Under the pieces are notes generated by a model. The model saw only the letters and a list, made by a program, of their open reading frames with translations. It was not told where the DNA came from and searched no databases. The translations under genes were made by a program, and so were the position numbers. DNA of 64,000 nt from Bolinopsis microptera (taxonomy: Eukaryota; Ctenophora; Tentaculata; Lobata; Bolinopsidae), in assembly GCF_026151205.1 (NCBI RefSeq), contig NC_087076.1:21012828-21076827 (forward strand), given 5' to 3'. Below are positions 2,481 to 29,900 of the stretch, piece after piece; within the stretch, counting starts at the first letter, position 1, and each line of letters starts with the position of its first letter.

Positions 2481-4735
2481 CGAACTAATGTCTTTAGTCG
2501 TGATATTGCAAGTAACAGAAAGAGAACTCTGACTTCTCACACGTGTTACTTCTCTGCCGTCGCTCTGAGTTACAAACTTGGGGTCTACAAACTCAGGTCT
2601 AGTGCCTAACAACCAGCTAGTGAACTTTTGGAGTAGCGAGGTGGATTCATGCACAAACATAGGCATCTGAAATTTATTGTACGGTTAAGAAGGTCATGAG
2701 AAACAATTCACAAATAATATATACTTCACTAAGACCATCTTGTTACTTGTTGGCTGAAACGATTCATTAAAAGTGAGTAGTAGTTGTAGTAGTAGTATCT
2801 CCCTCACTAACTAAACCTGTATTTTATGAGATCCAGGAATAAGAGGAAAGAGAATGCTCCCGTATCCGCGAACTACATCCCTCCCAAAGGCGTCCAGGCC
2901 GTACACGGCTATCACCAGCCTCGGCCATCCGTACGGGTTAGTACCCTTCAGAGTAACCTGTGGTGTTATTATTTTAACATTCAGAAGCTCGCGACGTTTA
3001 TAATATAATTTCATTGATTACAGGATAGTAAATACTCGTACCTTTCAAAAGTACGGGAAATGTTTGAGATCTACTGCGAAATGGTTGTTTTGTCGGTATT
3101 TCATTTTCTTTGAATCTCAGTATTTGGGTCTCTATACAGTTACTTTCAGGGGTGTAGGAATGGTTTTCTTCAAACAACAAACTTTGTTAAAGATTTTGCT
3201 CATGCAAAAAGCCTAGCTGAGCAATTTGGCCCTAGAGATCATTTTTAAACACAGTTTCAAGAACGATTCGAATAATACGATATTAAATGCATATTAGAGC
3301 CTGCCAGCAGCTCTTGCTCTTGCTAAATAAGTGTGATTCGAAAAAGGGATGCATAGTGTATCCATAATCTCAACAAATTAATTTTAAATTGGGACATGGA
3401 TACTAAATTATAATTTATTAAAACATCCGATAACTGCATGAGATAGTACTCCAATGTTATAACGTTCATTTTAGAATTGTTTTTATAAAAGTAGTTGTGC
3501 AGTTTATTGCAATTAAAATGCAATTAAAATGGACGATCGTTTTGTTTAATTGGGAGCTCTCTACAGTTAATCTTCAATGTGGCCTCAAATTATAATTTCT
3601 CGTTGTCCTGTTATAATTGCTTACAACACTTATACTAATTGATGAATGCAGTTGATAATTTAGGGGGATGCATTCAACAAAGAGTTTGCAACAACAAAGT
3701 ATTCCGTCCTCGCGTTTTAATTCCTTACCTCACTCGTTTGACTATTGAGAAAATAGTGCTATTATAATTATCAAAAGTGTGGTATTACTTAACTAAAGGA
3801 GCAAAGCACGTGCCCTGGAGCACCAATCACAACACAGAAACTACTCCCGTGCACGTGGTGTGCACGTGCTCTAATGAGGTCCAGGAATCAGTCGAGTATT
3901 AAGCACTAACGGTCGTGGAGACCCTATCAGTTCTTTCTCTTGAGCTCTTGCTACGGGTTATAGCCATAACCAGCAATGTTAATCTATAGCTCTTGCTACG
4001 GGTTATCATACTATATATAAAGCGAGACGATAGTTTTCCGTGCCATTTTACTGACACCACGGCATCAACTTTAACGCGACTTTCCGCAAAAACCGTAAAA
4101 GATATACAACTGAAAATTTGTTGACTGGGTTAAATGTTTTAATGGCCTTCAAATCAGCATGAAAATTTTAAAAATAGGCCAAGGAATAGTGATTTTAGTG
4201 CCCAAAATTTGGACCCCCAAGTGGTGTCAAAAACGCGAATAAAATAGGTAATAATTATTTTAGTCTCTTGAGTCTTGACACCGTTTAGGGTTATATTATA
4301 CGGGTTCCTGCTAAATCGACATTTTTTTCATTTCTTTTGACGTTTTTTTATACCAGCAAATGATCTTAAAATCCATTTTTATACAATAGCATATAATATA
4401 AGCATCTCAATATTCAACACTCAATATATTACATTGCAGTGCCGACCGCAATACAGAACAGTTTCAAGTTTTACATTTTATTGTTACGAAAACGTACTAT
4501 TTATTGTTACTAAAACAAACTATTTATTGTTACTAAAACCTTTTACAACGGTAACTTAATCTCAATACTCAACACTCAATATATTAGATTACAGCAGCCG
4601 ACCGCAGTATAGAACCTTTTTAAGTTCAAAAATTTATTATCAAATTTACTTACTTAGTTTTATCATTTGTTGCCACTATATACTATTACTATCGGGTTCA
4701 AAGGACAATAGACGGCGCGGAACTTATTGACATTG

Positions 4736-5433
4736 ATTGCGGAGTGGTGAGACGATTGCGGAGGGGTGAGATGATTGCGGAGTGGTGAGACGATTGCGGA
4801 GGGGTCAGATGATTGTGGAGGGGTGAGATGATTGTGGAGGGGTCAGATGATTGTGGAGGGGTGAGATGATTGTGGAGGGGTCAGATGATTGCGGAGGGGT
4901 GAGATGATTGCGGAGGGGTCAGATGATTGTGGAGGGGTGAGATGATTGTGGAGGGGTCAGATGATTGTGGAGGGGTCAGATGATTGTGGAGGGGTCAGAT
5001 GATTGTGGAGGGGTGAGATGATTGCGAAGGGGTCAGATGATTGTGGAGGGGTGAGATGATTGTGGAGGGGTGAGATGATTACGGAGGGGTCAGATGATTG
5101 TGGAGGGGTGAGATGATTGTGGAGGGGTGAGATGATTGTGGAGGGGTGAGATGATTGTGGAGGGGTGAGATGATTGCGGAGGGGTGAGATGATTGTGGAG
5201 GGGTGAGATGATTGCGGAGGGGTGAGATGATTGTGGAGGGGTGAGATGATTGCGGAGGGGTGAGATGATTGTGGAGGGATGAGATGATTGTGGAGGGGTG
5301 AGATGATTGTGGAGGGGTGAGATGATTGTGGAGGGGTGAGATGATTGTGGAGGGGTGAGATGATTGTGGAGGGGTGAGATGATTGTGGAGGGGTCAGATG
5401 ATTGTGGAGGGGTGAGATGATTGATGATCCCCA
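4736..5433. repeat. 19-bp minisatellite, about 36 copies
   Basis: The unit is GATTGTGGAGGGGTGAGAT, with variants GCGG for GTGG and GTCAGAT for GTGAGAT. Because 19 is not a multiple of 3, the long minus-strand frame here (SHPSTIISPLHNHLTPPQS-type repeats) comes from a three-unit cycle and is not a gene. One strand is G-rich (runs of GGGG). Confidence 0.9.
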
Positions 5434-5884: not shown

Positions 5885-5987
5885 ATGAGAAAGCACGGTC
5901 GAATGTGTTATGCTATGTTTATCATGATCGTACCTCTGTCAGTAGCTTACGCAGAGGTAACTTATACCGACCTTCCTCAATCTCAAG
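5885..5987 (+). CDS. Exon 1: signal peptide exon of the secreted gene
   Basis: ATG at 5885 is the first Met after an in-frame TAA at 5873. The peptide starts MRKHGRMCYAMF, has a hydrophobic core IMIVPLSV and a likely signal-peptidase site after AYA. It continues EVTYTDLPQSQ plus one base and ends at the donor CTCAAG|GTTAGC. In-frame Mets at 5903 and 5915 are alternative starts. The phase-1 end matches exon 2. Reading past the donor gives a stop at once (CAA GGT TAG). The donor is the first unit of the 31-bp array. Confidence 0.6.
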
Positions 5988-8900
5988 GTTAGCACTTGGT
6001 TCATATAATATCTCAAGGTTAGCACTTTGCTTCATATAATATCTCAAGATTAGCACTTTGCTTCATATAAAATCTCAAGATTAGCACTTTGCCTCATATA
6101 ATATCTTTAAGGTTGGCACTTTGCTTCATATGATATCTCAAGGTTAGCACTTAGCACTTTGCTTCATATAATATCTCAAGGTTAGAACTTTGCTTTGTAT
6201 AATATCTCAAGGTAAGCACTTTGCCTCATATAATATCTCAAGGTTTGCACTTTGCCTCATATAATATCTCAAGGTTAGCACTTTGCTTCATATAATGTCT
6301 CAAGGTTAGCACTTTGCTTCGTATAATATCTCAAGGTTAGCACTTTGCTTCATATAATATCTCAAGGTTAGCACTTTGCTTCATATAATATCTCAAGGTT
6401 AGCACTTTGCCTCATATAATATCTCAAGGTTAGCACTTTGCTTCATATAATATCTCAAGGTTAGCACTTTGCTTCATATAATATCTCAAGGTTGGCACTT
6501 TGCTTCATATAATATCTCAAGGTTAGCACTTTGCTTTGTATAATATCTCAAGGTTAGCACTTTGCTAGTCATATAATATCTCAAGGTTAGCACTTTGCCT
6601 CATATAATATCTCAAGGTTAGCACTTTGCTTCATATAATGTCTCAAGGTTAGCACTTTGCTTCGTATAATATCTCAAGGTTAGCACTTTGCTTCATATAA
6701 TATCTCAAGGTTAGCACTTTGCTTCATATAATATCTCAAGGTTAGCACTTTGCTAGTCATATAATATCTCAAGGTTAGCACTTTGCTTCATATAATATCT
6801 CAAGGTTAGCACTTTGCTTTGTATAATATCTCAAGGTTAGCACTTTGCTTCGTATAATATCTCGAGGTTAGCACTTTGCTTCATATAATATCTCAAGGTT
6901 AGCACTTTGCTTCATATAATATCTCAAGGTTAGCACTTTGCTTCATATAATATCTCAAGGTTAGCACTTAGCACTTTGCTTCATATAATATCTCAAGGTT
7001 AGCACTTTGCTTCATATAATATCTCAAGGTTAGCACTTTGCTAGTCATATAATATCTCAAGGTTAGCACTTCGCTTCATATAATATGTCAAGGTTAGCAC
7101 TTTGCCTCATATAATATCTTTAAGGTTAGCATTTTGCTTCATATAATATTTGTTTACTTGGAACGATTTGAACACAAATATTCCTCTTCAAAACGCATTG
7201 AACCTTGAACGATACTACTTAGGATAGGTTATTTTCAGAGTTTAAATGATGATTATTATAATTCCTCTCAGGTTGGGAAGCACCGGTAGCAGGGAAGAGG
7301 TTTGCACTAAGTCAAGATCAGACTCTGGCGATACAAACTACACCTGATTTTGAGCGGGAAGGGATAAATCCTTTATTCGTGTTCTCAGATGGAAGCGTGT
7401 CTCCGTTAAAATTCTTCAAAAGCAGAAGAAAAGGCTGGTACTACCGAGTGGATTTCTGCAATGAACTGCAATCACTCAAACGGGTCCCAAACGGCCACAA
7501 GAAATGGAGACTCACGCTCACACTAACTAGCTTGGTTCTGGAGTGCAACGGAGAAACTCTTCTTAATTTTAACTTCGCTGAAGATGGGCGCGGTGATATG
7601 TGTGAACAGACTTGGACTAACAAACAAATATCATCTATAATGTTCAGCAGGTTAAAACACTTTGTCATCCGAGCTGAAGGTTAGTAAAGTTGCCTTACAA
7701 CTGACAAATTTGACAGATGAAAAATATGGATAAAATTGTCGCATAATCTTTTGCATGAATGAATTGCAAATACCTTGTTCTGAAATTTACAAGTAAATAA
7801 AGTAATTGTTATTGCTGGTCAAATAATAAACATAAAAAATTGTTCCAAAACAGAAGCTCTATCCCCCAAGTAGTGTATATGATATATATATATACTACTC
7901 CCCCAACAATTTATCTCCTTCTATCCCCCAACAATTCATCCCCTTCAGAGAGTATTTGTGTAGTAGAAAGGACAAAAATAAAGAAAGGAGAAAAGTTGGG
8001 CTTCGGCTGCCCCCGTGGACTAACCAACTATGGGAACAGTGAGGGAACCTGTGTGGTAGCAGACCAGTTCAACTTTACAAGGAAGCCACCTCTCTGTAAA
8101 TATGGTAAGTGCAGTTCACTATATAGTGACAACACTATATAGTGACAAGCACTTTATAAGTGGAGTGGATAAGTTGGTTAGCAAAGGGTGAAAACTAAGG
8201 AATGTACATTTTTAACAGGCTCGTAAGACCCACTCACTCTTTTTAGTGTAAACTAAGTATATGTAACCTACCTAAGTGACCTAGGTATAAGGAATTTATC
8301 TACCAAAGTAAAATAGGTATCTAGATGCAATTTTAAAATCCTCGATCCCATCGCCATATTCCATGTGTACTTGAGGCTTCTCCAAAAAATGATACATTTT
8401 ATAATTTATAGTTATTTATAATTTATAGTTATTTATAATTTATAGTTATTTATAATTTATAGTTATTTATAATTTATAGTTATTCATAATTTATAGTTAT
8501 TTATAATTTATAGTTGTTTTTTTAAAATCGCGATTCCGTACATGCCGCGATTTCCTTTTGTCCCTGGTGGAGTAGTAGCAAGAAGGTATCGTATATATTT
8601 TAATTTGTTCTCTTGATTATTTATTTATGATTTTATGTAGGGTCGGCACCAATGTAATTATGGTTTTCACCACCGTGTTTTGGTTCAGCCGAAATAAATT
8701 TTACTATGATATTTACATAATGTTTCTCACTCCAGCTGCAGTCTGGTAGTGTTGAGTCTCATGAATATTCTTCTAGCTCTCATTTTCCATGTTTTTGCCT
8801 CACAGGAGATATTGTGGTCTTTTCTAAATATAACTGTAATATCAAATAACGGAGTAGTTCGCTGTTTATTAGTCTCATGATTGAAATACTGATATCTGGA

Positions 8901-11900
8901 TATTATCCGGTTGGAAGAGACAAGGACAAGTGAAACAAGGAAGTTAGGAGTAAGGGCAAATTTTCGGCGTCAACGCCATCTTCAGGCTCAAATTATTTGT
9001 TATATAGTAGTGTTGAAAGTATTAAAACTATTTTAATAGTTATTTATAATTTAGTTATTTATAATTTATAGTTATTATATTTCGGAAATTTCATTCATCC
9101 TAAACTTCATGCCAACTTATGAAGTTGGCTATGATTGTTGTCTTAAGACAGACAAATTCTCACAAATCTGCTTGCAGCTTCCAGGTAACCAGGTAACCAG
9201 GTAACCATGACACGCCACCATTTCAGCTTCCAGAACCTGGACGAGTTGGTCACACTCAGGATCAGAAGGGATAAAGATGGCTAAATCCTGTCCTCAAGGG
9301 TTCTACGTATTGGATATGGTTTGGCTCTACCGATCAGGACATGGAGTCATAGATCTTGCGTTAAAATGCCACGATCCTGATAGAAGATCAAGCCAGTTTG
9401 TAGATTTTGTGGGACACGAGCGATTGATAGAAGATGGATTAGCAGACAGAAAACGGCCAGACAGCAGTGATATCTGGGGCTGGTTCCCCAGCTTCACAAC
9501 TCTCCTCGACCTTGATGGAAGTGAAGCTAGCAATTATGTAAACAAACCAGACACTGAGTGGTTCGATGACGAACTTTCCGCAGGGGCGAAATGTTCTGGG
9601 AAAGGTGGAATTGACTCTTTCTTGGGACATAGCCAGAGCTGTTGCGGGCTGGTGAACACTAGCTTCAGATGCACTGATAGCGTGTCATGGTATAAGACTG
9701 GAACAAACATAAATGGAAAGCAAAACAAGAAGATACAGTGTCCCGCAGGACAAGCCTTCGTAGGAGCTGAAGTGGTGTACGGAGAGACAACAGAGTTTAA
9801 CAAAATATTCAACAACAATCATCCAGGCATCACAGATGTACGCTTCCAGTGTGAAGAGTCAAAATATCCGCCAGTTGCAGCTTGTGTAGGATTACCTTCT
9901 GGGTGGAAGTCCGTGATAACCTCCGCAAGCTTTCCTGTTGAGATTGGAAAAGTTATCCAAGTGTCCTGCTCACGTGGCTACATTAACATGGGGGATATAG
10001 AAGTGACATGCGTGAGGAAGGATCAGTTCTCCTACACAGAGGAGCCTTTCTGTAAAGACGGTAAGTTCTCCTACACAGAGGAGCCTTTCTGTAAAGACGG
10101 TAAGTTCTCCTTCACAGAGGAGCCTTTCTGTAAAGACGGTAAGTTCTCCTACACAGAGGAGCCTTTCTGTAAAGACGGTAAGTTCTCCTACACAGAGGAG
10201 CCTTTCTGTAGAGACGGTAAGTTCTCCTACACAGAGGAGCCTTTCTGTAGAGACGGTAAGTTCTCCTACACAGAGGAGCCTTTCTGTAAAGACGGTAAGT
10301 TCTCCTACACAGAGGAGCCTTTCTGTAGAGACGGTAAGTTCTCCTACACAGAGGAGCCTTTCTGTAGAGACGGTAAGTTCTCCTACACAGAGGAGCCTTT
10401 CTGTAAAGACGGTAAGTTCTCCTACACAGAGGAGCCTTTCTGTAAAGACGGTAAGTTCTCCTACACAGAGGAGCCTTTCTGTAGAGACGGTAAGTTCTCC
10501 TACACAGAGGAGCCTTTCTGTAAAGACGGTAAGTTCTCCTACACAGAGGAGCCTTTCTGTAGAGACGGTAAGTTCTCCTACACAGAGGAGCCTTTCTGTA
10601 GAGACGGTAAGTTCTCCTACACAGAGGAGCCTTTCTGTAAAGACGGTAAGTTCTCCTACACAGAGGAGCCTTTCTGTAAAGACGGTAAGTTCTCCTACAC
10701 AGAGGAGCCTTTCTGTAGAGACGGTAAGTTCTCCTACACAGAGGAGCCTTTCTGTAAAGAAGGTAAGTTCTCCTACACAGAGGAGCCTTTCTGTAAAGAC
10801 GGTAAGTTCTCCTACACAGAGGAGCCTTTCTGTAAAGACGGTAAGTTCTCCTACACAGAGGAGCCTTTCTGTAAAAACGGTAAGTTCTCCTACACAGAGG
10901 AGCCTTTCTGTAAAGAAGGTAAGTTCTCCTACACAGAGGAGCCTTTCTGTAGAGACAGTAAGTTCTCCTACACAGAGGAGCCTTTCTGTAAAGACGGTAA
11001 GTTCTCCTACACAGAGGAGCCTTTCTGTAAAGACGGTAAGTTCTCCTACACAGAGGAGCCTTTCTGTAAAGACGGTAAGTTCTACTACACAGAGGAGCCT
11101 ATCTGTAAAGACGGTAAGTTCTCCTACACAGAGGAGCCTTTCTGTAGAGACGGTAAGTTCTCCTACACAGAGGAGCCTATCTGTAAAGACGGTAAGTTCT
11201 CCTACACAGAGGAGCCTTTCTGTAGAGACGGTAAGTTCTCCTACACAGAGGAGCCTTTCTGTAAAGACGGTAAGTTCTCCTACACAGAGGAGCCTTTCTG
11301 TAAAGACGGTAAGTTCTCCTACACAGAGGAGCCTTTCTGTAAAGACGGTAAGTTCTCCTACACAGAGGAGCCTTTCTGTAAAGACGGTAAGTTCTCCTAC
11401 ACAGAGGAGCCTTTCTGTAGAGACGGTAAGTTCTCCTACACAGAGGAGCCTTTCTGTAAAAACGGTAAGTTCTCCTACACAGAGGAGCCTTTCTGTAAAG
11501 AAGGTAAGTTCTCCTACACAGAGGAGCCTTTCTGTAGAGACAGTAAGTTCTCCTACACAGAGGAGCCTTTCTGTAAAGACGGTAAGTTCTCCTACACAGA
11601 GGAGCCTTTCTGTAAAGACGGTAAGTTCTCCTACACAGAGGAGCCTTTCTGTAAAGACGGTAAGTTCTCCTACACAGAGGAGCCTTTCTGTAAAGACGGT
11701 AAGTTCTCCTACACAGAGGAGCCTTTCTGTAAAGACGGTAAGTTCTCCTACACAGAGGAGCCTTTCTGTAAAGACGGTAAGTTCTCCTACACAGAGGAGC
11801 CTTTCTGTAAAGACGGTAAGTTCTCCTACACAGAGGAGCCTTTCTGTAAAGACGGTAAGTTCTCCTACACAGAGGAGCCTTTCTGTAGAGACGGTAAGTT

Positions 11901-14900
11901 CTCCTACACAGAGGAGCCTTTCTGTAAAGACGGTAAGTTCTCCTACACAGAGGAGCCTTTCTGTAAAGAAGGTAAGTTCTCCTACACAGAGGAGCCTTTC
12001 TGTAGAGACAGGTAAGTTCTCCTACACAGAGGAGCCTTTCTGTAAAGACGGTAAGTTCTCCTACACAGAGGAGCCTTTCTGTAAAGACGGTAAGTTCTCC
12101 TACACAGAGGAGCCTATCTGTAAAGACGGTAAGTTCTCCTACACAGAGGAGCCTATCTGTAAAGACGGTAAGTTCTCCTACACAGAGGAGCCTTTCTGTA
12201 AAGACGGTAAGTTCTACTACACAGAGGAGCCTATCTGTAAAGACAGTAAGTTCTCCTACACAGAGGAGCCTTTCTGTAAAGACGGTAAGTTCTCCTACAC
12301 AGAGGAGCCTTTCTGTAGAGACGGTAAGTTCTCCTACACAGAGGAGCCTTTCTGTAAAGACGGTAAGTTCTCCTACACAGAGGAGCCTTTCTGTAAAGAC
12401 GGTAAGTTCTCCTACACAGAGGAGCCTTTCTGTAAAGACGGTAAGTTCTCCTACACAGAGGAGCCTTTCTGTAAAGACGGTAAGTTCTCCTACACAGAGG
12501 AGCCTTTCTGTAAAGACGGTAAGTTCTCCTACACAGAGGAGCCTTTCTGTAGAGACGGTAAGTTCTCCTACACAGAGGAGCCTTTCTGTAAAGACGGTAA
12601 GTTCTCCTACACAGAGGAGCCTTTCTGTAAAGACGGTAAGTTCTCCTACACAGAGGAGCCTTTCTGTAAAGACGGTTAGTTCTCCTACACAGAGGAGCCT
12701 TTCTGTAGAGACGGTAAGTTCTCCTACACAGAGGAGCCTTTCTGTAGAGACGGTAAGTTTTCCTACACAGAGGAGCCTTTCTGTAAAGACGGTAAGTTCT
12801 CCTACACAGAGGAGCCTTTCTGTAAAGACGGTAAGTTCTCCTACACAGAGGAGCCTTTCTGTAAAGACGGTAAGTTCTCCTACACAGAGGAGCCTTTCTG
12901 TAAAGACAGTAAGTTCTCCTACACAGAAGAGCCTTTCTGTAAAGACGGTAAGTTCTCCTACACAGAGGAGCCTTTCTGTAAAGACGGTTAGTTCTCCTAC
13001 ACAGAGGAGCCTTTCTGTAGAGACGGTAAGTTCTCCTACACAGAGGAGCCTTTCTGTAGAGACGGTAAGTTTTCCTACACAGAGGAGCCTTTCTGTAAAG
13101 ACGGTAAGTTCTCCTACACAGAGGAGCCTTTCTGTAAAGACGGTAAGTTCTCCTACACAGAGGAGCCTTTCTGTAAAGACGGTAAGTTCTCCTACACAGA
13201 GGAGCCTTTCTGTAAAGACAGTAAGTTTTCCTACACAGAGGAGCCTTTCTGTAAAGACGGTAAGTTCTCCTACACAGAGGAGCCTTTCTGTAAAGACGGT
13301 AAGTTCTCCTACACAGAGGAGCCTTTCTGTAAAGACGGTAAGTTCTCCTACACAGAGGAGCCTTTCTGTAAAGACGGTAAGTTCTCCTACACAGAGGAGC
13401 CTTTCTGTAAAGACGGTAAGTTCTCCTACACAGAGGAGCCTTTCTGTAAAGAAGGTAAGTTCTCCTACACTGAGGAGCCTTTCTGTAAAGAAGGTAAGTT
13501 CTCCTACACAGAGGAGCCTTTCTGTAGAGACGGTAAGTTCTCCTATACAGAGGAGCCTTTCTGTAAAGACGGTAAGTTCTCCTACACAGAGGAGCCTTTC
13601 TGTAAAGACGGTTAGTTCTCCTACACAGAGGAGCCTTTCTGTAAAGACGGTAAGTTCTCCTACACAGAGGAGCCTTTCTGTAAAGACGGTAAGTTTTCCT
13701 ACACAGAGGAGCCTTTCTGTAAAGACGGTAAGTTCTCCTACACAGAGGAGCCTTTCTGTAAAGACGGTAAGTTCTCCTACACAGAGGAGCCTTTCTGTAA
13801 AGACGGTAAGTTCTCCTACACAGAGGAGCCTTTCTGTAAAGAAGGTAAGTTCTCCTACACTGAGGAGCCTTTCTGTAAAGAAGGTAAGTTTTCCTACACA
13901 GAGGAGCCTTTCTGTAGAGACGGTAAGTTCTCCTACACAGAGGAGCCTTTCTGTAAAGACGGTAAGTTCTCCTACACAGAGGAGCCTTTCTGTAAAGAAG
14001 GTAAGTTCTCCTACACTGAGGAGCCTTTCTGTAAAGACGGTAAGTTCTCCTACACAGAGGAGCCTTTCTGTAAAGACGGTAAGTTCTCCTACACAGAGGA
14101 GCCTTTCTGTAAAGACGGTAAGTTCTCCTACACAGAGGAGCCTTTCTGTAAAGACGGTAAGTTCTCCTACACAGAGGAGCCTTTCTGTAAAGACGGTAAG
14201 TTCTCCTACACAGAAGAGCCTTTCTGTAGAGACGGTAAGTTCTCCTACACAGAGGAGCCTTTCTGTAGAGACGGTAAAATTTCCTCAGACTGTGGCAAGA
14301 TGATTTGCAGCTCACTATTATTCTGCAATTTGATATTCAACCATCTAATAAAGTAATAACTAGACATCTACAGTTATACAATATACATACTGTAGGTACA
14401 TTAGGGCCAATAAATTTGGTTCACAACAAATTTGGTTACCATAATTTTGTTCACCATAATTTTAGTCACAAATTTCGCAAATTTTTAGTCTGCAACAATT
14501 TTAGTCGCATTTTTCGACTTTTCGAGACCATTTTCCATTCCATTTACCTTAAGAATGACAAATTTAGTCTACCCCGTCTGAGCGAGCATTACAGATTAAG
14601 TTGCAATGCATAACTCAGGAATTTCAATAACATCGGATCCAGAGTTTGTGACTCTGTATCACTAAGTTCTTCAGTACACTGTTCAGTGTTCAGTTTCTTT
14701 TTCACCCTTTTTCGACTTGACCATTTCTGTCGGTACGACGTAGTTTATGTCGATATGATTCGATTAATTTAAATGGAAATCACCTAACATAAAGCATTTT
14801 CTCAACTTATGTCCATGACTTCGCTTTGACTTGATCAAACATTTTAATGTCACCAAAATGTAAACCAAAATCGGACTAATGCTATTCTGATTCTTTGACT

Positions 14901-15226
14901 TTTCCTTACTAAAGTTTTAAATTATAAACTGCGATCATATATATATAGACACGGTACGCAAACGTATCTATAATATATTTCAGGCTGTTATACAAGCTAC
15001 GAGATGAATGTTGGTCTGTTTCCTGACTCCCAGAAATTAGCACAGAGTGAGTTCAGGAGTTTTGAGAGTTGTCAGGAATGGTGTGATGATACTCCCCTCT
15101 GTAAAGGAGTAGCCGTCAGTCCTTGGAATTGGGCCCGTGAGTCCCGAGAGTGCTTTCTGGTGGGCACTATGCACATAACAGCAAGGAGTGGATGGACTGC
15201 GAGTTCTCTAAGTGATTGTGACCAGG
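5885..15226 (+). CDS. Secreted multidomain gene: signal peptide, FA-methyltransferase-like, sushi-like, PAN/Apple (5-exon model)
   Basis: Gene-level model: exons 5885-5987, 7272-7679, 7949-8104, 9227-10060 and 14984-15226. Every junction is phase 1 and the joined frame is open, about 581 codons if the first donors are used. Order: signal peptide (1-23), FA-methyltransferase-like beta domain (about 35-170), short sushi-like module (171-222), Cys-rich domain (223-435), second sushi-like module (about 437-500) and PAN/Apple (501-581). Phase-1 borders are typical of shuffled extracellular modules. The product is inferred to be secreted and to bind ligands or adhere. It is unfinished at the 3' end: exon 5 ends in a donor, and a possible terminal exon (15616-15653) is weak. 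Introns 1 and 4 begin with minisatellites built from the exon-intron junction. The exact start is supported by an upstream in-frame stop. Confidence 0.7.
5975..7145. repeat. 31-bp minisatellite built on the intron-1 donor, about 37 copies
   Basis: The unit reads ATCTCAAGGTTAGCACTTTG followed by CTTCATATAAT, with CTTTGTATAAT, CTAGTCATATAAT and CCTCATATAAT variants and a few internal 'GCACTTA' duplications. The first unit is the real exon-1/intron-1 junction, so each copy carries CTCAAG|GTTAGC. The array fills most of the 1.3-kb intron and stops about 125 bases before the acceptor of exon 2. Confidence 0.9.
7272..7679 (+). CDS. Exon 2: farnesoic-acid-methyltransferase-like (Methyltransf_FA-type) domain
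   Basis: The acceptor TTCCTCTCAG ends at 7271 and the donor GAAG|GTTAGT follows 7679. It encodes 136 codons in phase 1-1, so the exon is symmetric. The motif series KKWRLTLTLTSLVLECNGE, LLNFNF and QISSIMFSRLKHF resembles the C-terminal core of the extracellular domain family named after farnesoic acid O-methyltransferase. In animals that family is usually found in secreted or matrix proteins, without proven methyltransferase activity. A WYYRVDFCNELQS segment precedes it. Assignment is from motif memory only; the exon itself is well supported. Confidence 0.65.
7949..8104 (+). CDS. Exon 3: short sushi/CCP-like module
   Basis: The acceptor CCCCTTCAG ends at 7948; the donor TATG|GTAAGT follows 8104. 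52 codons, phase 1-1. The pattern ICVVERTKIKKGEKLGFGC, then GTCVVADQFNF and PPLCKYG, matches the second half of the sushi-like module in exon 4 (VSCSRGY, VTCVRKDQFSY, EEPFCKDG). It looks like a shortened or diverged CCP domain with Cys-x-Cys spacing kept. Just after the donor, a 16-bp piece (CACTATATAGTGACAA) is duplicated in tandem. Confidence 0.65.
8396..8516. repeat. 17-bp AT-rich minisatellite in intron 3
   Basis: About seven copies of TAATTTATAGTTATTTA. A short related stretch recurs at 9038-9078. It is not attached to a splice junction, unlike the arrays in introns 1 and 4. Confidence 0.85.
9227..10060 (+). CDS. Exon 4: Cys-rich domain plus sushi-like module
   Basis: The acceptor CCACCATTTCAG ends at 9226 and gives phase 1 (A-S-R-T-W). 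A second AG at 9233 would break the phase. The exon carries a Cys-rich part (CPQGFYVLDMVWLYRSGHG, SQSCCGLVNTSFRC, KIQCPAGQAFVGAE, DVRFQC). Then comes a sushi-like module beginning ACVGLPSGWKS and ending VTCVRKDQFSYTEEPFCKD. The Cys-rich part is not recognised; the repeated C-x-x-G/A-x-F/Y spacing vaguely recalls dermatopontin-like folds. The first consensus donor, AAAGACG|GTAAGT after 10060, matches the phase of exon 5. The frame stays open through about 50 more 39-bp units to a stop at 12013-12015, so longer forms of this exon are possible. Confidence 0.75.
10025..14277 (+). repeat. 39-bp minisatellite of the exon-4 end with its 5' splice site, about 109 copies
   Basis: Each unit is 39 bases (13 codons, GKFSYTEEPFCKD) and contains the consensus junction GACG|GTAAGT. 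Units are highly alike; variants include AGAGAC (Arg for Lys), AAAGAAG, AAAAACG, GACAGTAAG and GGTTAG. The forward frame is open from exon 4 through about 50 extra units. It then breaks at about 12010, where an extra A (GACAGGTAAG) shifts the frame into a stop. Later units read in another frame, with stops where GGTTAGT occurs (about 12675, 12987, 13610). Homogeneity implies recent expansion or ongoing gene conversion. Confidence 0.97.
14984..15226 (+). CDS. Exon 5: PAN/Apple domain
   Basis: The acceptor TAATATATTTCAG ends at 14983; the donor CCAGG|GTAAAT follows 15226. 81 codons in phase 1-1. The motifs GCYTSYEMNVGLFPD, FRSFESCQEWCDDTPLCKGV, ECFLVG and SDCDQG follow the PAN/Apple pattern: a central C-x-x-x-C helix, C-x-G, and a late C-x-L. 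Joining exon 4 through the split Gly codon gives CKD-GCYTSYE. The domain usually binds proteins or carbohydrates outside the cell. It lies about 700 bases past the end of the 39-bp array. Confidence 0.72.
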
Positions 15227-16560
15227 GTAAATTACAAAACACATTTTTCCTTTTTAAGCTCTAGAGTTTTTATCGTGCATGGTTTTCCGTGGGCCTCAAA
15301 GTGGTGCCTCAAGGACCTCAGTTCCTCAATGCGTCACAAGGTTATCTGGATCTTGTATGATCCAAGTACAACAGTCCTAGACATCTCACTTCGTGACTAA
15401 ATTTATGGTAGACTAAATTTGTCGTTCTTAAGGTAATTCGGTTATTTGTCGGTCGACACTTGAGGCACAATTGAGACACGGATAAGGCACGGATTACACA
15501 CACGCAAACTTAAGGCACGCTTGATGGCCCCTGCATATATCGACAATCTGTTGTAAAACAGGGGTTCCAAAAAAACCCTTTCCCGATACTCCTGATACTT
15601 GAAATTATTTTGCAGTCGACACAAAATTGATTTCCAGGAGAGGAGACTCTTGAGACTCTCACTTCGTCAACTACAATTCAAAAAATTTACAGTATAATTA
15701 CAACACTACAAATCTATTACATTTATTGAGAATTATGTTGTAATTTTGTATGAAAAGCATTAATACAGTAGTTCAACTATATCCTATTTCTGAACACTTA
15801 AGATAATCAAGTTATAACTGCTTAAATTGTTGTCATAAGTATCATCAAATATCGTCAATACTCTCATTATCATGCCCTAAATTCTCAATTTTAGGGAGAG
15901 GGCTACACAAAACCACAGCAATTACCAAGCAAGCTTAACCGTTGCCTGACAAGGAGAACAACACATGGACGAAGATATGATAACGTTAACTATTAAAGCT
16001 AAAGGAGCATGGTATTTGAGTATTTGGGATTCACGATTTAAGGTTATATAGCAAAGGATGAAACAGTCTGGAACAATTTTTTGAACTACAGTTTTAGCAT
16101 GCATGAAGAATTTAAACCGGGAATATTTTACTTTTGGGTTTAGTAATTATTTAATTTTTCTTCTTACAAATTTAAGTTAGCGTGCAGAATGTTAAAATGT
16201 TGATTCTTAAACCATTACATAAAATTTATGTTGTAATTAGAAACCATCAAGATTAGTCGACTTCGGCAGTGAAATGTCCATATCTAGATGTTCTAGTGGA
16301 ATCGTTCTGTGGAAAAAGTCTACAGTAATTTAAGTAACTAGTAACTACAGCTCAATGAAACAATAAATTTTTCAATGAAACAAACAGCTGCGGACGAGTG
16401 AATGCTGCAGTCAAGTGCAGTGATGTTATTGTACATGGGAGAAAAAACATAAGCGGGTAATATCCTGTCCAAACCCAGAATACATAACATGAAGACTTTG
16501 GTGTAACTTTGTATTATTGTTATTATAAAACAGGATCTTACCGACAAAAATGATTCTTAA
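15227..16560. other. Intron or intergenic, no clear gene
   Basis: Apart from the weak exon at 15616 I see no supported coding exon. An oligomer, TGTATGAAAAGCATTAATAC, occurs at about 15748, again inside the LINE relic at about 17116 (where on the minus strand it reads GINAFHTKLF), and nearly identically at about 32183. Pieces of the same retroelement are therefore scattered. Confidence 0.4.
15616..15653 (+). CDS. Possible short terminal exon of the secreted gene
   Basis: The acceptor TTATTTTGCAG ends at 15615. Reading in phase 1 from exon 5 gives VDTKLISRRGDS and then TGA at 15651-15653. Phase agreement is the only support; no domain and no clear AATAAA follow. The true 3' end may lie elsewhere. 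Confidence 0.2.
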
Positions 16561-16567
16561 AAATACC

Positions 16568-17152
16568 TTAATGCGGTAAACTGTACCCTTGAAAAAGATT
16601 TTCCCAACATCTGTTGCATGCAGCTATATCTTTAATTTCGTTCAATTCATACAAGTTGTCCATTTGCAAACTTCTACTATTTAAATCACTTCTTAAAACC
16701 AATAACAAGTTCATTCTAGGTCTCCCCAATCTTCCAATGAATAAATTATCTGATTCAATAGAAAATGAGAGAGCCGTTTGGGCTGGGGTGTTCTCCATAC
16801 TCCTGAGAATGTGTCCAAACATTTTCCACCGCTGGTGTTCAATACGCTTGGATAACTTTTCAACTTTGCACCTTTCATACAATGCTTTGTTGCTTATCAT
16901 ACCTTTAGGCCATTTGATGTTTAAAAAGGACCTGAGGTGTCTACGATGGAGTGTGTCCATTTTCTCCATGGTTGCTTTCTTAGGACTCCAACTATTTGAG
17001 TTGTAAATCAATACAGATACAACTTGAGCATCGTATAACCTCAGCTTTCTTTCAAGGGATATTTTCTTACCAGACAGCCAAACTTTTTCAAAGTTCTTAA
17101 AAGCAATAAATAACTTTGTATGAAAAGCATTAATACCTACAGACAAATACAT
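16568..17152 (-). mobile_element. LINE relic: C-terminal part of an RTE-like non-LTR retrotransposon ORF
   Basis: A 194-codon frame encodes the region after the reverse-transcriptase core. Features include KLRLYDAQVVSVLIYNSNSW, a block of basic residues around LHRRHLRSFLNIKWP, ALYERCKVEKLSKRIEHQRW and MFGHILRSMENTPAQTALSF. These are hallmarks of the tail of many animal LINE proteins. No upstream catalytic part is adjacent, so it is truncated. Stop at 16568-16570. Confidence 0.75.
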
Positions 17153-17606
17153 AGCATATTGTATTTGTTGAGGTTTATTTGTTGAGGTTAAAGTCAGTCA
17201 CGATACTGCAAAAGCAATACATCAGCACTGAGACTATCCCTCATCTCCTCATCAACAAGGCATCATCAATGTACGCTTCTAGTTCCAGGATTTGTCACAT
17301 TTAAGGATGGATTGCCGTCAAGTAGAGTTAATTATTAGAGTTAAACACATTTGCCTGATTTTGGTCAGAAAACAGAAGAAATGGGAAACGAAATAGAACT
17401 AAGGTGGAAAGACAACCCCATTTTGCCACAAACCCCAAATTTGATCATTACATGATATAGTAAGTTTGATGTTGATAATTGAACTGTGAAAACAGCAAGA
17501 AAACCTGGCAAATTATTAACGAACTCAGGGGCAAAAGCCAAAAAGAAGAGGCAAACCAAGCCCCCATTTATCATTGATAACCAAAGAATAGTTGATAGAA
17601 GAATAG

Positions 17607-24641: not shown

Positions 24642-26045
24642 TTAGGGCGGCTTCAGCGTCCGAACAGAAATAGTCTTCTTCCAAATCTGTCTATCCAGCA
24701 TGAGTTTGTTAATCTCTTTGCTGTCGTCAAGCCCCGTGTCCTTCCGAAGGATGTCAATGTATGTGAGATGTAGTCTTCCCCTTCGACGATGTCCTAGAAG
24801 GGGTTCCCAGAAGAGAAGTTGATGACACAATAGTTCTTCATGTCTGGCTAAATGACCTGCGAGTCTCATCCTCCGTGCAGCTATCTTATCAGATGCTCTG
24901 ATGAGGTGTCCATACACCTTGGCGTTAGTCTGCCGCTCTTTCCAGTCAATGTTCAGTGCCATCCTCAGCATTCTCGTATAACATCCATCAATACGTTTTG
25001 CGAGGGTCTGGCTGACAGTCCATGTTTCAGAGCCATATAGAAGAATGGACTCGACTGTAGCCACGAACAGTCGTATCTTGAGATCTCTACGCATATCCGA
25101 CTTCCATACAAGCTTCATCTGGTCACACGCTCCCCATGCCTTAGCTTTCCTCACTTCGAAGTCCTTCTCCGAACTCTTCATTCTACTACCCAAATATACG
25201 AAGTCATCGACTTTCTCAATGTTCTTCCCACTCCCAGCAACCAGAGTCGGGTTATCATCATCTCTTATGTTGATTCCCATGTTGAGGTGGAGTCCAACTG
25301 AGTTGGCTGCCAGTTCCAGACTCCTGAGGAAATCTTGTGCCTCCGCAACACTATCTGTTATAAGAGCAAGGTCGTCAGCAAAGTCCGCATCAGTGACCTT
25401 GACTGCCGGATAGCGACGGCTTCTTCTAGGGTGTAGAGTAAACCAAAAGTCCCTACCCTCTAGGGACACCCTCATAATGTAGTCAATTACGATTATGAAT
25501 AGGTAGGGCGCCAAAGTGTCTCCCTACATCACTCCTGCTAGAATGAAGAATGCTTCACTCAGACCATCCTCGGTAATCACACGAGCAAATGTATCTGCAT
25601 AAATTCTTTGTATCAAGCCTACAATCTCCTTGGGAATTCCATATGCCAGGAGGATCTTCATGAGGAGTCCACGGTGCACGCTGTCCATGTCGAATGCCTT
25701 CTTGAAATCATATTACAACTAGTCATATTCTTAGGCCAAGAATATGACTAGTTGTTGACCTACTCTCTCTGAATCCGTTCTGATTGATCCTTAAGATGTC
25801 TTCCATGGCAGGTGTGATCCTGTTCAGTATCATCTTATTGAGAGTCTTACTCACTATAGATGTCAGTGAAATACCTCTATAGTTATCTACTTTGGTCAAA
25901 TTCCCTTTCTTTGGAACAGGCACGATGTTTAGGTACTTCCATTGGTCAGGAACATCGCCATCAACTAGTGCTTTATTGCAGAAGTCAAGGATCAAATCAT
26001 CAACATCAACAACAATAGATGTGATTCCAAATTATATTATTTTGC
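24642..26045 (-). mobile_element. RTE/CR1-like LINE reverse transcriptase, nearly continuous but broken
   Basis: On the minus strand: an N-terminal RT part (VPDQWKYLNIVPVPKKGN, VDNYRGISLTSIVSKTLNKM, NQNGFRESRSTTSHILGL, 25723-26045), a disrupted AFDM-DSVHRG block, then a 290-codon part. That part carries the catalytic motif FADDLALI, the thumb-like LHLNMGINI and FVYLGSRMKSSEKDFEVRKA. It continues with SILLYGSETWTVSQTLAKRI and a Trp/Arg-rich tail. A stop at about 25523 and a roughly 25-codon deletion at an inverted-repeat scar (25706-25747) inactivate it. Confidence 0.8.
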
Positions 26046-27544: not shown

Positions 27545-28868
27545 ATAGAAAACGGTATCACTTTATAAAAATCTTAACCGCTAATTTTTAAATTGTTGTG
27601 TTCTCAGTTTTTAACATTTCATTTTCAAGTTGTTTGTAGGTTTATAACCTACCAGACGCACACCGAGTTGGAGTTGGACTCGTCCGTCGACGGTCTAATA
27701 TTTGGAACAAATATTTTACGAGTATCATCCGTTAACAAGTTAATGTGAACTGAATTTGAACTGAGTTGTACAGTTTACTATAGTTTGAATTACATTAATT
27801 ACATTATATTGTTCTATTTTGTCGAATATTACCTATTAGTTACTAATAATTGCAACTGACGTTTCTTCATTTTTCGATTTCTGTTTCAACCGACTTTTCA
27901 ACCGACTTTCAAAGTCGATAAAATTTAAAAAAGACAAGAAACGCGGGAAAAGGTAAAACTAAATTGTCGTTTGGCTATAACATTGGTGATATTTAATTAA
28001 AACGATTACTGTTCTGCAGACAATTACAAATTATTTCGTGCCCAATATTGCAGTATGTTCACCGCCATTCATATATCACAAAACACATTTAAGCGGACTG
28101 CACAGCTCAAAAATGTGATTTATTAACTGAGTGATAACAAGCAACTGATAAAACTTAGATTACAATCTTAACCTTGCAACAGCTAAAATAATTTACTTGT
28201 TATCTTTCAAAATGTGGTATTGTTCTTATCGCTAAATTCTTTTAGTTTTAGTGCTATTACATCGTTGCTTTTAAATCTCACTATATTTTTTGTAATTGTA
28301 GTTTGTACTGCATGGCATCGTGGCTATGATGTATGAGAGCAATTTCGCTGGTTATAATTTTCGTACTTTAAAAAAATTCGTCGTTGTTAATCAGAAATAT
28401 GTCAAATATGTATTATTAATATTTGACGAATAAGCCGTTCAAACTGCTAAAACTTTTGAATTCATATTCCCCAACACTGATATAAATATAATAATTAATG
28501 GTGTCGTTTAAGACTACGAATGAGTTTTGTCAATTTTATTCACGATTAAACTAAAGCTGTGAATATACTATTACTATTTTTCCCTGCAAATTATATCATG
28601 TTAAAGCTCCAAGCCAACCATTTGAATTACTGCGCCATCACTCAGTTTCGAAATTTTGGCCCATCTGACCATTGTCGATTGCCGAATGCTGATCGACAAG
28701 CGGCTTGAAATCGAACGTGTCAAGCCAAAAGTTGTTTCTTAGGGAATGTAAAACACTAATCGCTTTTGTGTTATCATAACCGACAACAGATATCACCGAG
28801 GCCTATTTTAAGGACTATAATTAAAATATTTTCGTTCGGATCACGTTCACAAAAAATATGTTTTCCAG
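27545..28868. other. AT-rich upstream region of the carbonic anhydrase gene
   Basis: Holds copy 3 of the structured dispersed repeat (27638-27745) and otherwise no supported exon. Any promoter or upstream non-coding exon of the carbonic anhydrase should lie here; I cannot place it. Confidence 0.4.
27638..27745. repeat. Structured dispersed repeat, copy 3
   Basis: Starts with the GTAGGTTTATAACCTAC hairpin. The central stem carries small internal duplications (GAGTTGGAGTTGG, CGTCCGTCGACGG). The downstream flank (AATATTTTACGAGTATCATC, then CGTTAAC) matches copy 2. Confidence 0.6.
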
Positions 28869-28871
28869 GAA
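28858..28871 (+). promoter_or_regulatory. Probable 3' splice acceptor before the carbonic anhydrase start
   Basis: TATGTTTTCCAG|GAAATGG: an AG 3 bases ahead of the ATG, after a T-rich stretch. Suggests a 5'-UTR intron or spliced-leader trans-splicing; same geometry as the MFS gene. Confidence 0.4.
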
Positions 28872-29900
28872 ATGGCATCGAACGTACCTTCTTGGCTACT
28901 TCTCCTGACTGCCATGTCCCTTATCAGTATTACAATCGGCGATCAGACCCAGTACAGTTACTTTGATCAAAGTAGCTGGCCAGAGCTTTGTCAGTCAGGT
29001 GAACAGCAGTCTCCAATAGACATTGACCTGATTGAGGATACAGTTCTCCACAGTAGCTCCCTTCCTGACCTGGGAGAGGTACAGCTAACTTACACTAACA
29101 GCAGCTCTATTAAATATGGAGTAAAAGATGGCCCCTTGGTCGTCATGCCTGAAGACTGGCCGGTGGGTCACACAGATGGTCTCCAGCTGCTTCAGATTCA
29201 TTTTCACTGGGGAAGCAACAGCAGCAACGGGGCTGAACACCATCTCTACGGCAAACAGTTCCAGGGTGAGATGCACCTTGTTACCCGGAACTTGGACCAG
29301 CTCGACCCCTTATCAGACGATTTTTACGCTGTATTCGGAGTTTTCCTTGAGGAGGATTCGAGTCAGGTCGGTTCAGAGAAAAACGAGGTCATTAAAAATC
29401 TGGTGAGCGGAGGTGTCATCAACAACGAAGTGACAGTGCCCCTGTCGCAACTCTTCTCCACGGAGACAACAAGTGTTTACACTTACGAGGGAAGTTTAAC
29501 AACGCCAGGATGTGCTGAGCACGTCTTCTGGATGGTTCTTGAGGAACCCATTAAACTGACACCAGGAGTAATGGGCACAATGAGGCAACATCATAATGTT
29601 AACCGAACATTCAGGAACACCCAACCTCTCAACGGTCGGCCAATCACCCACCGAGTTTTGGGAGAACAGCTCACTAGCGCTCCTCTGGACAACTTGGAGT
29701 TGGCAGAAGGTGAAGAACCAGTAGTGGAAGAAGAACCAGTAGTGGAAGAAGAACCGGCAGATTCCAACGAGGGTGGCGAAGAAGTTGAAAAGAAGAATGA
29801 AGAGGTGAACGAAGAGGAAAGTGAACCTAACTCAAGCAACATTGTCTCTGTTGAGATGGTTTTTCTGGTTTTGTCAATTTGTGAATTGCTCTTTCTTTAA
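28872..29900 (+). CDS. Alpha-class carbonic anhydrase, secreted, acidic tail and hydrophobic C-terminus
   Basis: 342 residues. The signal peptide is MASNVPSWLLLLTAMSLISI, with cleavage around residue 22-24. Alpha-CA landmarks: GEQQSPIDI (43-51); the three zinc histidines H110 and H112 (QIHFHWGS) and H135 (GEMHLV); the gate-type E122 (AEHH); and SLTTPGC with the catalytic Thr. C40 and the Cys of TTPGC likely form the usual disulfide. The residue aligned with the proton-shuttle His64 is Ser (about S78, TNSSSIKYG). After the domain comes an acidic EEPVVEEEPVVEEE repeat and then a hydrophobic end (VEMVFLVLSICELLFL), consistent with a GPI signal or membrane anchor. The CDS is intronless, unusual for animal alpha-CAs. 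An acceptor-like TGTTTTCCAG lies 3 bases before the ATG. Confidence 0.92.
   Translation: MASNVPSWLLLLTAMSLISITIGDQTQYSYFDQSSWPELCQSGEQQSPIDIDLIEDTVLHSSSLPDLGEVQLTYTNSSSIKYGVKDGPLVVMPEDWPVGHTDGLQLLQIHFHWGSNSSNGAEHHLYGKQFQGEMHLVTRNLDQLDPLSDDFYAVFGVFLEEDSSQVGSEKNEVIKNLVSGGVINNEVTVPLSQLFSTETTSVYTYEGSLTTPGCAEHVFWMVLEEPIKLTPGVMGTMRQHHNVNRTFRNTQPLNGRPITHRVLGEQLTSAPLDNLELAEGEEPVVEEEPVVEEEPADSNEGGEEVEKKNEEVNEEESEPNSSNIVSVEMVFLVLSICELLFL

Follow-up and report, generated by a model that had tools for sequence, protein, structure and literature searches.

Tandem repeats whose unit spans an exon–intron boundary have been described in amphioxus and in humans (PMC3087553, PMC2812944). Here we analyse a repeat of this kind in a stretch of 64,000 nucleotides of the Bolinopsis microptera genome (C5:21012828-21076827; hereafter the window). 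A 39-bp unit that holds the 5′ splice site, or donor, of exon 4 of a predicted secreted-protein gene occurs there 109 times in tandem. The closest known system is the ‘mirage’ minisatellites of amphioxus, found in Adh3 and in the globin genes BflGb6 and BflGb9 (PMC3087553; Canestro 2002 as cited there). Mirage units are 10 to 160 bp long, several loci occur per genome, and splice signals are present in many of the repeats (PMC3087553). Regular splicing was judged to go undisturbed by the repeats, a view with reverse transcription PCR (RT-PCR) support (PMC3087553). In humans, internal tandem repeats at exon–intron boundaries in segmental duplications can give alternative transcripts (PMC2812944). 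Two other described systems are related. Introns may originate from tandem arrays or be gained through duplicated AG-GT sites (Rogers; Zhuo 2007; as cited in PMC2812944 and PMC3087553), and the Rlec lectins of prawns carry 30- or 33-bp coding repeats in exon 2 (PMC7536079).

The Bolinopsis arrays resemble mirages in several respects. The unit spans an exon–intron boundary in predicted exons 4 and 1 of the window gene and in a predicted exon of a second gene on contig C3, and the unit lengths (39, 31 and 45 bp, respectively) lie inside the reported mirage range. Copy number has also turned over, with duplicated blocks of 6 to 7 units and 109 copies at exon 4 against one in the paralogue. The differences are of scale and frame. 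BflGb6 haplotypes hold 3 and 6 copies while the arrays here hold 26 to 109, the 13-codon unit at exon 4 keeps 50 donors in phase, and the phylum is different. The human boundary repeats share with exon 4 a minisatellite expansion that differs between recent paralogues (PMC2812944), but the variable ones average 30 bp and four copies. Regular splicing in amphioxus is supported by RT-PCR and the human cases are RNA-backed, whereas the 109 copies and the splicing considered here are read from genomic sequence alone. As in intron gain from tandem arrays, a segment bearing splice signals has been duplicated; here, however, the array adds length to the 5′ end of an intron that was already there, and no new intron is shown. 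Like the Rlec genes, the window gene is a predicted secreted-protein gene with variable, codon-multiple tandem repeats. The prawn repeats lie within an exon, so that the DNA sets the length, whereas the repeat here holds the splice site itself. The original prediction knew of no described system like the array. That statement has to be qualified, given the described boundary-spanning arrays, and a literature search covering titles and abstract openings found no case with this many donors. The array belongs with mirages and human boundary repeats, and stands out for its copy number and for having 50 in-phase donors in a row.

Expansion of the exon 4 junction

The main array occupies positions 10025 to 14277 of the window (forward strand, as are all window coordinates below unless marked). 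Tandem Repeats Finder gives a period of 39, 109.0 copies and 97% matches. A unit-by-unit walk finds 108 full units past exon 4’s own copy, in 18 unit types that each differ from the consensus at no more than two positions. Each unit consists of the final 34 bases of exon 4 (36 counting a shared AG) and the first 5 bases of the intron. Read in the exon 4 frame it encodes GKFSYTEEPFCKD, 13 codons containing the donor G/GTAAGT. The GT is intact in all 109 donors, and 108 read GT(A/T)AGT, the last being GTAAAA. One identical 11-base site is common to 87 donors (ACG/GTAAGTTC). The others are AAG/GTAAGT (9), ACA/GTAAGT (5), ACG/GTTAGT (3), ACG/GTAAGTTT (3), CAG/GTAAGT (1) and ACG/GTAAAA (1, the last donor).

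Splicing to the PAN-like exon downstream gives a stop-free, in-frame reading of exon 4 plus PAN from 50 of the 109 donors, extending exon 4 by 0 to 49 units. The first to fail is the donor at 12011. A 1-bp insertion at 12010 (12009 to 12011) breaks the frame there and creates the CAG/GTAAGT donor, which has the strongest U1 pairing in the array. The structure put forward in the original prediction therefore stands: exon 4’s end and donor form the unit, which is 13 codons long in phase 1, any of the first 50 donors keeps frame, and the frame is capped near 12010. The position of the cap carries a proviso. Were the insertion an assembly error, the cap would shift to a TAG carried by the unit at 12674.

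An array with 97% identity is likely to be a poor target for short-read polishing. The assembly was built with wtdbg and then polished in this way (PMC10232365), and caution is due over single-base indels in the array, the frame break among them. On a wider form of this doubt, both copy number and insertion would be long-read assembly errors in a repeat. We regard this as very unlikely. The 18 unit types follow a structured order, both edges of the array match the paralogue, and the doubt would in any case reach only the length and the single-base indels, not the existence of the array.

A search of the genome (264.65 Mb, 232 contigs) returned one close relative of full-length exon 4, at C1:8820160-8820999 on the reverse strand, with 84% DNA and 73% protein identity. 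This paralogue is collinear with the window gene from an upstream 19-bp array through the intron behind exon 4. Its exon 4 end and donor occur once, as GATCAGTTCTCC...AAAGACG/GTAAGATTTCCTCAGAC. In the window, the two edges of the array read GATCAGTTCTCC (5′) and GACGGTAAAATTTCCTCAGAC (3′). We read the 39-bp array as the expansion of one exon–intron junction, because the paralogue has that junction once and matches both array edges. An origin as a chance or simple repeat was rejected, since the paralogue shows where the exon came from.

The edges also suggest how the expansion may have begun. The ancestral intron start lies at 14273 to 14290 and reads GGTAAAATTTCCTCAGAC, where the paralogue has GGTAAGATTTCCTCAGAC. 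Both edges fit an initial joining of GTAAG to TTCTCC through two matching bases, AG. It would have turned the ancestral donor GTAAGA into GTAAGT, with the T at +6 now found in 108 of the 109 donors; the ancestral donor itself, now last in the array, reads GTAAAA. Slippage or unequal exchange would then have driven the expansion. Further turnover within the array is shown by its repeated blocks, in which units 67–73 equal units 75–81 and units 21–26 equal units 36–41.

Arrays without usable frames and the choice of donor

Two sister arrays bear on how the exon 4 array is used. The first lies at the end of exon 1 of the same gene, where a 31-bp unit is repeated 37 times (5980 to 7149) and is single in the paralogue. 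The unit holds the exon 1 end and donor (TCTCAAG/GTTAGC): exon 1 ends CCTCAATCTCAAG/GTTAGC and the unit contains TCTCAAGGTTAGC. A TAG follows directly after the first donor (read-through gives ...PQSQG and then the stop), and the unit is not a multiple of three. A protein product of this gene would require splicing of exon 1 at its first donor, because read-through hits an immediate stop and the 31-bp unit breaks the frame. By analogy exon 4, too, would most likely be spliced at its first donor.

The second sister array is in another gene, at C3:20832217-20833342 on the reverse strand (loci L084 and L016). This gene has a signal-peptide-like exon followed by an exon 2 that ends VYVRKSG/GTAAGT, and the exon 2 end and donor are repeated 26 times in a 45-bp unit. 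Its exon 2 shares 28% identity over 108 positions with exon 2 of the window gene (pairwise expectation value (E) 7e-9). An in-frame TAG stands directly after the donor in 17 of the 26 units, and the open donors are limited to the first two. Donor-spanning arrays thus appear to form and survive even where no productive length variation could result, since the exon 1 and C3 arrays hit stops. This favours neutral expansion with splicing mainly at the first donor.

We therefore consider it probable, from sequence comparison, that the 39-bp array is a donor-spanning, mirage-type minisatellite that is neutral and spliced mainly at the first donor. The spliceosome would mainly use the exon-adjacent donor after 10060, leaving the array almost wholly in the intron. 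Occasional longer in-frame isoforms could arise without selection for them, and the array would be tolerated because an early mis-choice of donor keeps the frame. The original prediction had offered a length-variation generator or a neutral array as alternatives. The neutral option is the better supported of the two, by the exon 1 array, the C3 array, the lack of a purifying signal and the described precedents.

Donor strength was compared by pairing with U1, whose 5′ end is AUACUUACCUG in all three of the loci read (ten U1 loci were found in the genome). Pairing is -5.5 for the last donor, GTAAAA, -8.2 for the paralogue’s donor and -9.3 for the common array unit. Since 87 of the 109 donors are identical over 11 bases, their sequence by itself offers the spliceosome little basis for choice. 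That identity also agrees with noisy splicing without function, in which donors would be taken at random and isoform lengths would smear, transcripts spliced at 12011 or beyond it being out of frame and likely to be degraded. We think this unlikely, as the exon 1 array would then spoil most transcripts. Moreover, all five modelled exons are open and exon 4 appears constrained. Against the paralogue, the nonsynonymous (dN) and synonymous (dS) divergences of exon 4 are 0.149 and 0.285 (dN/dS 0.52, 277 codons). For exon 2 the ratio is 1.11 (135 codons), and of the two exons compared, constraint is visible in exon 4 and not in exon 2.

The same 50 open donors could instead serve a length generator. 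If chance decided which of some 50 near-identical donors, all in phase, was taken, the result would be a secreted modular protein with 0 to 49 extra GKFSYTEEPFCKD units, each 13-residue unit adding a cysteine. The variability could be used, for example, in binding or cross-linking, and allelic copy number would add a second, heritable layer. The frame of 50 of the 109 donors, the identity of most of them and their better U1 pairing than the paralogue’s donor all agree with this. So do open, codon-multiple arrays near the gene family. At 5 of 18 loci with sushi-type exons (L015, L017, L019, L023 and L024), 48-bp arrays of about 5 to 19 copies, ECEAGKYSAAGSATCS-like and free of stops, lie beside the exon, their unit being predicted to encode 16 residues including cysteine. 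However, the sister arrays at exon 1 and on C3 cannot work in this way, and the 39-bp units carry no purifying signal. Units 1–50 show seven kinds of change, all missense where about 76% missense is expected at random, too few to test. Units 51–108 show ten kinds: one nonsense (in 3 units), four synonymous and five missense. With only those seven changes, units 1–50 give no sign of purifying selection and no synonymous excess. An AlphaFold prediction from single sequence for the sushi end plus 10 units (192 residues) gave a mean predicted local distance difference test (pLDDT) of 47.8 with no confident fold, and is uninformative. Overall, a length generator seems distinctly unlikely.

Splicing could also take place within the array, if the unit’s acceptor-like site TTCTCCTACACAG/AGG paired with the donors. 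Introns would then measure 18+39k nt and microexons 21+39k nt, every one in phase 1 and divisible by three. With a matrix of ten acceptors the site reaches 2.7 bits, ranking at the 91st percentile among 3722 AGs from outside the array. That score matches only the weakest of the ten acceptors (2.8 to 11.6 bits, leave-one-out) in what is a tiny matrix, and we hold splicing of this kind to be highly improbable.

Several observations weigh against neutrality and first-donor use at exon 4. Donor usage is deduced from the genome sequence, and the argument from exon 1 holds only for a gene with a functional protein product. The nine AAG/GTAAGT donors outpair the first donor (U1 -10.6 against -9.3) and could win, as could the out-of-frame CAG/GTAAGT, which pairs most strongly of all (-12.1). 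Each of the first 50 donors gives an open reading in frame. Most internal donors outpair the ancestral donor with U1, as usable alternatives would, and nonsense is confined to the 3′ half (the one kind, in 3 units), as selection on the 5′ half would produce. Finally, the human boundary repeats are evidence that such arrays may affect splicing and need not be purely silent.

Two donors of this gene stand in 109 and 37 tandem copies, which makes the gene a natural test of donor competition. It poses the question of how the spliceosome picks one 5′ splice site where dozens are nearly identical, and whether position alone decides. Iso-Seq libraries were reported in the Bolinopsis microptera genome study (PMC10232365), and reads that already exist may therefore hold the answer.

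Gene model, surveys and neighbouring features

The gene model was built from the sequence and the paralogue, and its exons are predicted. The five modelled exons join into 575 codons without a stop, and every junction is in phase 1. Exon 1 (5903 to 5987, 85 nt, open) encodes MCYAMFIMIVPLSVAYAEVTYTDLPQSQ, signal-peptide-like by eye, and ends in the phase-1 donor CAAG/GTTAGC, the same in window and paralogue. Exon 2 (7272 to 7679, phase 1-1) is open in both paralogues and has no Pfam match. Exon 3 (7949 to 8104, phase 1-1) looks like half a sushi module by eye, with no Pfam match. In the paralogue exon 3 is 155 nt long against 156 in the window, with loss of its last cysteine and of the phase, reflecting either a broken gene or an assembly indel. 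Exon 4 (9227 to 10060) ends in a sushi-like module (Pfam Sushi 21.7 bits, cut-off 20.7) with the natural donor ACG/GTAAGT after 10060. Its acceptor region is duplicated (9175 to 9226), with two copies of CAGCTTCCAG and 8-bp AGGTAACC repeats between them; the paralogue has one acceptor. The 19-bp array upstream is common to both paralogues, with 36 copies at 4734–5423 in the window and 19 copies at 7185–7546 in the paralogue’s locus L009.

Exon 5, the PAN-like exon (14984 to 15226, phase 1-1), scores 15.8 bits against PAN_4, under the cut-off of 27. The splice from exon 4 to it is a predicted junction. It lies in a dispersed repeat (14393 to 15436) that is absent from the paralogue, and no PAN exon is present in the paralogue’s neighbourhood. 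The PAN exon has 25 places in the genome including the window’s, 15 of them with E < 1e-24. All seven of the other loci read (L073–L079) share about 0.5 to 1.0 kb of 14393–15436 at 87 to 91% DNA identity. Seven copies pooled (the window’s and those of six of the seven loci, L075 being left out) give dN 0.076 and dS 0.143, a ratio of about 0.5. The PAN exons look coding, because dN is below dS and their lengths differ by whole codons. It seems that a repeat has carried a coding exon, together with flanking intron sequence, to new places. On the paralogue’s side, fucolectin-like exons (by eye, with no family search; L009 reverse, display 4746–3713) stand where the window has 55 bp. Exon content is thus reciprocal, with the PAN repeat in the window only and the fucolectin-like exons in the paralogue.

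Other exon ends were surveyed for similar arrays. Besides the window’s there were 145 matches to the sushi-type exon in total, and 17 readable exon ends were drawn from them, 16 at loci L012–L029 (18 loci) and one at the paralogue (L011). Loci L016 and L027 were dropped, their matches running through stops with no exon end. None of these 17 readable ends had adjoining copies of its junction, and the array as a general property of sushi exons was rejected on this count. A phase-1 donor lies no more than 4 codons past the last cysteine in all 17, though donors were chosen by eye and several loci are near-identical, which makes the phase count neither blind nor independent. At L025 a near-match to the junction, with 1 mismatch, stands at +706, and a second sushi exon lies 729 bp away; a whole-exon duplicate is the most likely source. 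Tandem copies were found near none of ten exon-2-type relatives, a small sample of the matches, searched from -100 to +400 of the match end with exon ends approximate.

Tandem GGTAAGT triplets number 4229 in the genome against 26 in a reversed control, the matches listed clustering in few arrays. Ten GGTAAGT arrays were examined, two pairs being from the same repeat families and one (L091) running past its stretch. None of the nine readable 5′ edges showed a convincing exon end, and the idea that all GTAAGT arrays are exon ends was rejected. One of them (L083, C7:5575175-5575688) has by chance an open 13-codon unit with no exon seen at its edge, a useful warning that open units can arise by chance. 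On its opposite strand are open frames of a cysteine-rich gene, SRCR-like by eye.

Within the window gene a donor lies inside two of the three arrays with at least five copies. Random placement on the unexpanded paralogue gives this with a chance of 0.3% (0.003), a post hoc figure. Taking the first donor array as given, the chance that one of the other two holds a donor is 5% (0.05). In this genome minisatellites may preferentially arise at splice donors. With three arrays in two genes here, the known range of the mirage type would reach far beyond lancelets, and the recurrence of the arrays raises the question whether splice donors seed minisatellites.

Elsewhere in the window are two reverse-transcriptase-like remnants on the reverse strand, at 24642–25523 (RVT_1 and DUF6451, both under cut-off) and 16568–17197 (DUF6451, under cut-off). 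A carbonic anhydrase gene (28821–29900, Pfam 135 bits) carries an 18-bp coding repeat (EEPVVE) near its C-terminus.

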